From Acidimicrobiales bacterium (GTDB lineage Bacteria; Actinomycetota; Acidimicrobiia; Acidimicrobiales; SKKL01), in assembly GCA_034521975.1 (NCBI GenBank), contig JAXHLR010000006.1, forward strand, positions 372,001 to 436,000: DNA of 64,000 bases. Direction: 5' to 3'. The notes under the pieces are model-generated. The model worked only from the letters and a program-made list of their open reading frames with translations, was not told the DNA's origin and searched no databases. Shown here piece by piece: positions 43,790 to 45,260 of this stretch (within the stretch, counting starts at the first letter, position 1; the number at the start of each line of letters is the position of its first letter). The translations under genes were made by a program, and so were the position numbers.

Positions 43790-44098
43790 CTAGTCGCCCG
43801 ACGCCGCGGCACGCACGGCGCGTCGGGTGGTCGAGAAGGGGGCGTAGCCGGCCATGGCCCGCTCCTCCTCGCTCTCGCCTCCCCAGAAGCCGCTCTCACG
43901 GTTGAGCCTGGCGTCGGCCCGGCAGGCGAGCATGACCGGGCACTGGAGGCACATGGCCCGAGCCGACGCTTCGCGAAGCGCGCGGGCCTCGGGGCGTTCG
44001 CCCAGAGGGGCGAAGAACAGCTCGGTGTGCCCGACGCACCGGGCATGGTCCACCCACGAGCGATCGGTCAGGATCGGTTTCCTCGGTGGTCGGGACAT
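43790..44098 (-). CDS. WhiB-family iron-sulfur transcriptional regulator
   Basis: This 102-residue actinobacterial regulator carries a [4Fe-4S] cluster sensitive to redox or NO. Four cysteines are present: HARCVGHTELFF (about 21) and AMCLQCPVMLAC (about 49, 52 and 58), the CX2CX5C pattern of WhiB proteins. The G[VI]WGG-like turn appears as SGFWGGESEEER (about 69-80). The N-terminal extension is short and basic. GGAGGG precedes ATG 44098. It stands upstream of the UbiB-like gene and divergent from the dehydrogenase-like gene. Which WhiB class it belongs to cannot be settled here. Confidence 0.92.
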   Translation of the reverse strand: MSRPPRKPILTDRSWVDHARCVGHTELFFAPLGERPEARALREASARAMCLQCPVMLACRADARLNRESGFWGGESEEERAMAGYAPFSTTRRAVRAAASGD

Positions 44099-44237
44099 GG
44101 CGGCTCCCTCCGAAGCCCTCGAGTGGTCGACACGGCCGCGTGGGCCCTTACCCCACTTCCGTGGCATCCATCGCTCCCGGATGCACCCCGCGACGCCCTC
44201 TTCGATCGCGGGCCACCCGGGGTGACACAATCCGGGT

Positions 44238-45260
44238 GTGCAGATCCACAAGCTGACGACGACCAACGCCTTCATCATCACCGACCTCGACGGGGCCTCC
44301 CAGGCGGCAGGGATCGTTCGCGTCGCGCCCAAGGTGCTCCAAGGCAGCGCGCAGGCGTTCGCCCGCACCGCCACCTACACCTTTGCGCTGCGTGAGCTGC
44401 AGGTCGGTGGGGCATCGGCGGGCATCAGCGCCGAAGCCGAGGCCCGCGACGAGGCGGTCGCCGCCTTCGTCGCCGAGGTCAAGGCTCGGGTCGACGCCGG
44501 CGAGCTCGTGCTCGACCCGGGTACCGGTGTCACCGCAGACGACCTGGCCGATCTCGCCGCGAGCGACCCACGCAGCCCGGTCAGGAACGAAGAAGTCGAC
44601 GGCCTGTCGCTGCAGCATCATCTCGAGGCCATCGGACCCGTCATCGCCGCCGAGGCAGCCTTGGGCGGTCTCGACGGACACACCGCGGCGATCGAGGCGA
44701 ACCCGGTCGCGGGCCGCTTGGTGGCAGAGCTGGTCGCCCGCGGTGCCACCGTGGTGGCCTTCGGCAACGCCAAGGGTGCCGCCCTCGACCCCAATGGGCT
44801 CGACGCCGACACCCTTGTCGAGGCCGGAGCGTCGGCGCTCGACTCTCTCACCAGCGAGCCAGAGGATGCGTCGGCCCTCTTCGGCGCCGAGGCGTCGGTC
44901 CTGTTCTGCGGGTCGCGGCAGGGCATGATCGACGGCGAGGCAGCCGAGGCCACCGGAGCGGGCCTGGTGGTGCCAACCGGCTGCCAGCCGGTCTCGGCCA
45001 AGGGCCTGGCGGTCCTGCGCCGCCGGGGGATCGTGGCCCTCGCCGACTTCATCTCCACCTCCGGCCCGACCTACGCGGGATGGCCAGCGGGCGAGGCAAC
45101 CATCGACGCGGTGCTCGCCGATGCCACCAGCGGTATCACCGAGGCCGTTCGCCGGTCGCTCGACCACGACGAGGGCCCGCTCCTCGGCGCCTGCTACCGG
45201 GCAGAGGCGTTCCTCTCCACCTGGCAGGAGGCGCTGCCCTTCGGCCGCCCGCTCGCCTGA
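44238..45260 (+). CDS. Glu/Leu/Phe/Val dehydrogenase-fold protein lacking catalytic motifs (probable pseudoenzyme)
   Basis: The 340-residue protein follows the layout of amino-acid dehydrogenases. N-terminal part: VRVAPKVLQGSAQAFARTAT (about 27-46), then LQVGGASAGIS (about 54-64) where active enzymes have a GGGKGG motif with the catalytic lysine; here both lysine positions are lost. C-terminal part: EANPVAGRLVAELVARGATVVAF replaces the dinucleotide loop GFGNVG (about 151-172), followed by recognisable NAKGAALDPNGLDADTL and ALFGAEASVLFCGS where enzymes carry a conserved PAA-type block. The fold is supported by this ordered alignment from memory, not by a search. GTG 44238 has a -10-like CACAAT (44226-44231) six bases upstream. 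A regulatory or ligand-binding role is more likely than catalysis. Confidence 0.65.
   Translation: MQIHKLTTTNAFIITDLDGASQAAGIVRVAPKVLQGSAQAFARTATYTFALRELQVGGASAGISAEAEARDEAVAAFVAEVKARVDAGELVLDPGTGVTADDLADLAASDPRSPVRNEEVDGLSLQHHLEAIGPVIAAEAALGGLDGHTAAIEANPVAGRLVAELVARGATVVAFGNAKGAALDPNGLDADTLVEAGASALDSLTSEPEDASALFGAEASVLFCGSRQGMIDGEAAEATGAGLVVPTGCQPVSAKGLAVLRRRGIVALADFISTSGPTYAGWPAGEATIDAVLADATSGITEAVRRSLDHDEGPLLGACYRAEAFLSTWQEALPFGRPLA

Follow-up and report, generated by a model that had tools for sequence, protein, structure and literature searches.

The gene at positions 44 238–45 260 of the window (the whole 64 000-nt stretch of Acidimicrobiales DNA analysed here) raises the question of what can be done by a protein that is recognizable as an amino-acid dehydrogenase and carries none of the residues with which such an enzyme works. 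It could be a decayed gene, an enzyme of an unusual kind, or a member of a conserved family that has given up catalysis. We addressed the question by comparing the protein with its relatives in the same order, class and phylum and with the dehydrogenases proper.

An intact gene with a conserved start

The first-pass annotation had described the locus as a real, full-length ORF without signs of decay. Coordinates, GTG start and product length were all borne out (Table 1). The GC content by codon position (0.75/0.54/0.88) has the pattern expected of genuine coding sequence where genomic GC is high, orthologs have the same ends, and the gene is under purifying selection (see below).

The sequence just upstream of the GTG contains an extended −10-like element which, by analogy with known actinobacterial promoters, is predicted to be the promoter of a leaderless mRNA beginning at the GTG itself. 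In 51 of 129 relatives a hexamer of the form [CT]A[CG][AG][ACT]T begins 12 or 13 nt 5′ of the start codon; in shuffled controls this was the case for about one relative (maximum 4). The conserved position of the hexamer supports both the choice of the GTG as start codon and active use of the gene. A scan with the sigma-70 consensus did not find a −35/−10 pair, and the promoter evidence consists of the conserved −10 position only.

Table 1. Coordinates of the features of the locus in the window
Feature	Positions	Strand	Remarks
ORF containing divergent WhiB-like regulator	43790..44374	−	PF02467, 5.8e-12, ORF residues 107-173
Extended −10-like element TGaCACAAT, 6 nt 5′ of GTG	44223..44231	+	Sequence; predicted promoter, leaderless mRNA
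Pseudo-dehydrogenase gene, GTG start to TGA stop, 340 aa	44238..45260	+	Orthologs in the order have same start and same end
N-terminal ELFV dimerisation/substrate domain, residues 8-102	44259..44543	+	PF02812
A24, site of first substrate lysine (GPxK)	44307..44309	+	Lys in 0/125 members
T48, site of second lysine (TWK; reads TYT)	44379..44381	+	Lys in 0/125 members
S60, site of catalytic lysine (GGxKGG)	44415..44417	+	Ser in 114/125 members
G95, site of catalytic aspartate (APD; APDxxT motif)	44520..44522	+	Asp in 0/125 members
GDH-type Rossmann domain, residues 146-276	44673..45065	+	PF00208; listed fold-search matches all GDHs
ANPVAG, residues 154-159, site of GxGxxG dinucleotide loop	44697..44714	+	Joint alignment
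NAD-module residues 178-214	44769..44879	+	Present in query; deleted in 46/125 relatives, sister genus included
C-terminal helix and near-invariant tail ACYRAEAFLSTWQEALPFGRPLA	45162..45257	+	FGRPLA reaches past GDH end

Assignment to the Glu/Leu/Phe/Val dehydrogenase superfamily

The placement of the protein in the Glu/Leu/Phe/Val dehydrogenase superfamily, also proposed in the first-pass annotation, holds. Both Pfam domains score above their cut-offs (PF00208, 28.4 bits with a cut-off of 23.4; PF02812, 25.5 bits with a cut-off of 25.3), and comparison of the pseudo-family profile with a GDH profile by hhalign gave a probability of 99.8 with an E-value of 2.4e-30 over 310 columns. PDB sequence matches of the 340-aa protein were GDHs without exception (best E 1e-7). 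No dedicated NCBIfam model matches the protein.

Structure prediction was weak, and inadequate for the N-terminal domain: an AF2 model built from 4 sequences had a mean pLDDT of 44, and a second one, built from 22 sequences that included GDHs from the viral-contig scans, a mean of 46. In the second model the block means of the Rossmann core mostly lie at pLDDT 60–87, a range reached by no other part of the protein. The matches listed in a fold search with this model were all GDHs; GDHs were present in its alignment, so this result is no independent proof.

Loss of the catalytic residues

We aligned the members of the pseudo-family jointly with 35 proteins of the GDH group and inspected the four columns that hold the catalytic residues. 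The reported loss of the GGGKGG lysine was confirmed and proved to extend to the whole family: the motif reads GGASAG in the query, and none of the 125 members has Lys in the column of S60. The two other lysines and the aspartate are missing as well (Table 1). In the GDH-group rows of the same alignment the three lysines (K1, K2 and K3) and the aspartate are present in 33–35 of the 35 rows. The acidic residue after beta-2 is missing from most pseudo members. Likewise, the altered block that reads SVLFCGS in the query is real and family-wide (consensus ADVLFxGSKxGxxDH). Judged from these sequences, we infer that NAD-linked amino-acid deamination would be beyond the ability of the family.

Distribution and phylogeny

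Among 298 genomes of the order scanned at a threshold of E ≤ 1e-12, 130 (about 44%) had a match, mostly one per genome; 125 distinct pseudo members were gathered. Scans were extended to the class (247 genomes) and the phylum (396 genomes), each set including genomes of the order. Among the matches listed from outside the order there were GDH-like scores (≤150 bits), a single long-branched relative (L108, 146 bits) and a single protein of the dehydrogenase-like sister type (L120 in G518; see below), and nothing else. A single-protein genome scan returned one ortholog (L021, ‘Acidimicrobiia bacterium’) along with two haloarchaeal GDH-like loci, and scans of viral contigs found no members of the pseudo-family.

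The pseudo members sampled for a 70-row tree form a single clade (support 100/99). The sister of this clade (99/86) is made up of dehydrogenase-like proteins (L013 of genome G028, L120 of G518 and L173/L076 of G131/G060; L013, L120 and L173 are in the tree), and the two groups are joined at 100/100. Proteins of the sister clade are similar in length to the pseudoenzymes and share with them a conserved C-terminal tryptophan, W329. They differ in that K2, K3, the aspartate and GxGxxG are kept; the first lysine is already Ala, position 32 is Asp, not Lys, and there is no FGRP tail. Since the catalytic losses are found in 125 of 125 members, in one clade, next to a sister with the core kept, these losses are old and shared; the idea that homologues in related genomes might have them too is borne out for the catalytic residues.

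A sister-type gene and a pseudoenzyme gene occur together, on different contigs, in two genomes, G060 (L076 with L077) and G131 (L173 with L184). Sister-type loci with the catalytic core kept include L200 (G518:C13:12644-13657) and L201 (G028:C174:4860-5864). One sister-type locus comes from a genome outside the window's class and within its phylum; this may reflect transfer or a misbinned contig.

Glycine loop and NAD module

The dinucleotide-binding part has a different history. In the query the GFGNVG loop is indeed lost, as had been noted, and reads EANPVAG. This loss did not turn out to be common to the homologues: 32 of the 125 members retain the strict G/G/G pattern, and the loop has decayed lineage by lineage, with 13 state changes on a 101-row tree (Ala also being allowed at the third position). 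To judge by the motif, some of the 32 members with the full pattern may still bind a dinucleotide.

The segment 178–214 is missing from 46 of the 125 members. It changes state seven times on the 101-row tree and nine times on the careful 70-row tree, both of which were built without the columns of the deletable segment. Several changes fall inside well supported pairs (L169/L055, L101/L156, and L008 + L012 beside the query), and deleted and full forms occur side by side within genus groups (g37, g54). The query's own family is mixed, with the deleted form in L008 and L012 and the full form in the query and L002. Family group f51 (L064, L174) instead has an insertion at this place, 75 and 130 residues against 44 in the query. 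The protein, conserved elsewhere, is thus free to vary in this stretch of its NAD module.

Selection and conserved regions

Values of dN/dS (NG86) ranged from 0.04 to 0.40 over 68 pairs, which include deleted-form pairs and one sister-type pair. The query and L002 gave 0.32, a rough value given dS near 0.9. Conservation is unevenly spread along the protein: mean identity is highest in the last 32 residues (60%), followed by the former substrate site (residues 25–65, 56%), residues 215–280 (42%) and the deletable segment (28%).

In the substrate cleft R28, R43 and Y47 are invariant, and S60 and the basic residue at position 32 (K in 113/125, R in 11/125) are near-invariant. K/R32, L34, S60, A73 and the FGRP tail are fixed in the pseudo clade and not in the sister. 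Of the 125 members, 123 have the motif [FWY]GRP 1–3 residues before their C-terminal end. Some tails end in LAA, and a ClpXP/ssrA-like degron was considered; we dropped this idea, as the last residues vary (LA, LAP, LAS, LG, IA, FAP).

Gene neighborhood

The query gene is flanked by the divergent WhiB gene and by an EAL-domain gene (45 454–46 347). The true start of the WhiB-like ORF is probably internal (MSRPPRK...), near position 44 100. Divergence from a WhiB regulator, pointed out in the first-pass annotation, is correct for the query genome, where the Pfam match is clear (Table 1), but no consistent linkage to WhiB was seen in relatives. Farther out on the minus strand, ∼2–4 kb from the query gene, 40 401–42 153 contains a gene for an amino-acid ABC transporter binding protein-like product (AapJ-like by eye) adjoined by a gene for a CBS-domain-like protein; past the EAL gene, the products encoded at 46 652–49 164 (minus strand) look by eye like a ParA ATPase and a GGDEF-EAL protein.

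The neighbors that do recur in relatives are xseA-xseB, encoding exonuclease VII. Both places were readable in 84 of the genomes listed, which are a sample and not a census. In 47 of these 84, belonging to 12 family groups, the pseudo gene is situated 3′ of xseB on the same strand and within 10 kb, and in 24 it is within 200 nt of xseB; in the remaining 37 the xse and pseudo genes are far apart or on other contigs. Where other genes lie between xse and the pseudo gene, a P450 gene is among them, along with those for a polyprenyl synthetase and release factor 3; the identities of the latter two neighbors and of XseA and XseB were verified. In family group f35 (L060, L062, L079) the order xseA-xseB-polyprenyl synthetase-release factor 3-(P450)-pseudoenzyme is kept. 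No xse gene was found within ∼8 kb of the query gene or of the members of its family examined, and xseB often occurs without the pseudo gene, in many of the order's genomes. The recurrent linkage points to an ancestral site of the gene behind xseAB.

Alternative explanations

That all the classic sites deviate might suggest that the gene is a pseudogene in decay or that the ORF is spurious. This idea can be regarded as refuted, with hardly any probability left to it: the gene is intact in more than 100 genomes, its dN/dS is well below 1, its tail is conserved up to the last residues and the −10 element is conserved. We also consider it very improbable that the protein still works as an NAD(P)-dependent amino-acid dehydrogenase, its catalytic residues having moved to other positions. 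Recognition of both ELFV domains and retention of GFGxxG in some members would agree with activity; however, not one of the four catalytic residues is present in any member, the acidic residue after beta-2 is mostly gone and the NAD module has repeatedly lost a segment. Harder to set aside, and yet doubtful, is a neofunctionalised enzyme that would use the old cleft for some other, NAD-independent chemistry via Ser60, K/R32, R28, R43 and Y47. Replacement of the catalytic Lys by Ser in 114/125 members and the new basic residue at position 32 resemble selection for a new site rather than drift, and the high conservation of the pocket residues fits an altered enzyme too; on the other hand, no recognizable catalytic motif is present, position 60 is not Ser (mostly Thr or Ala) in 11/125 members, and no consistent linkage to metabolic genes was seen.

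The neighborhood brings up yet another possibility, an accessory factor of exonuclease VII encoded by the third gene of an xseA-xseB-X operon and regulating the nuclease or docking on it. It is the linkage in 47 of the 84 genomes that speaks for such a factor, which we think unlikely: the genes are unlinked in 37, neither the query nor the examined members of its family have an xse gene nearby, X is missing from many of the order's genomes that do have xseB, and ancestral gene order accounts for the linkage without any interaction. A more specific scenario, in which a dehydrogenase became an NAD-independent partner of exonuclease VII in an ancestral xseA-xseB-X operon and many lineages then discarded the NAD module independently, is a slightly longer shot still; if true, it would mean that a metabolic fold was turned into a regulator of DNA repair.

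Proposed function and comparison with known systems

We favor, with a probability of about 60%, an order-wide family of pseudoenzymes derived from an amino-acid dehydrogenase and serving, independently of NAD, as a ligand- or partner-binding regulatory or scaffold protein. The ‘conserved pseudoenzyme’ part of this reading, already put forward in the first-pass annotation, is strongly supported, as far as sequences can tell, by the two-domain homology, the family-wide loss of the catalytic core in a single clade, the losses in the NAD module, purifying selection and the conserved start and tail. The family probably functions through binding and not through catalysis. The reshaped N-terminal cleft (R28, R43, Y47, K/R32 and S60) could hold a small acidic ligand or a side chain of a partner, and the fixed tail LPFGRPLA might shut the cleft or dock on the partner. 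A sensor of amino-acid or acyl ligands, as first suggested, is a possible form of such a protein. The literature that we searched (incompletely) contained no paper joining ‘pseudoenzyme’ and ‘amino acid dehydrogenase’, which is weak evidence of novelty.

The family and its relatives make up a natural series from enzyme to non-enzyme: core-intact relatives, proteins with a dead site and a full NAD domain, and proteins with the NAD module partly cut out. All members of the series are related, and purifying selection is seen wherever pairs can be compared. Pfam-based annotation would label the pseudo genes Glu/Leu/Phe/Val dehydrogenases; reconstructions of nitrogen metabolism in these bacteria may therefore overcount dehydrogenases.

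In common with the ELFV GDHs, the pseudo-family has the two-domain order, the Rossmann core, the invariant residues G25 and R28 (Gly and Arg of GGIR), the GGxxG turn and the PDFxxxxG block. It differs from them in the loss of all catalytic Lys and Asp residues, in a shorter N-terminus, in a glycine loop that is decayed or an NAD module that is deleted, and in the added C-terminal FGRPLA tail.

A parallel in logic is GdhA of Thermus thermophilus, an inactive GDH subunit that is regulatory for leucine activation; C-terminal segments of the Thermus heterohexamer take part in leucine binding (PMC9570180). A regulatory or scaffold role of the pseudo-family would follow the same logic with another partner and a different tail. 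The query genome does have a separate, normal GDH gene; its location on another contig gives no support to a GdhA-type hetero-oligomer with active GDH. Both GdhA and the pseudo-family proteins are catalytically inactive GDH homologues (the latter by sequence). GdhA, however, is GDH-sized and resides in a hexamer with active GdhB, whereas the query protein has ∼20% identity to GDH and is encoded by a gene remote from the GDH gene of its own genome.
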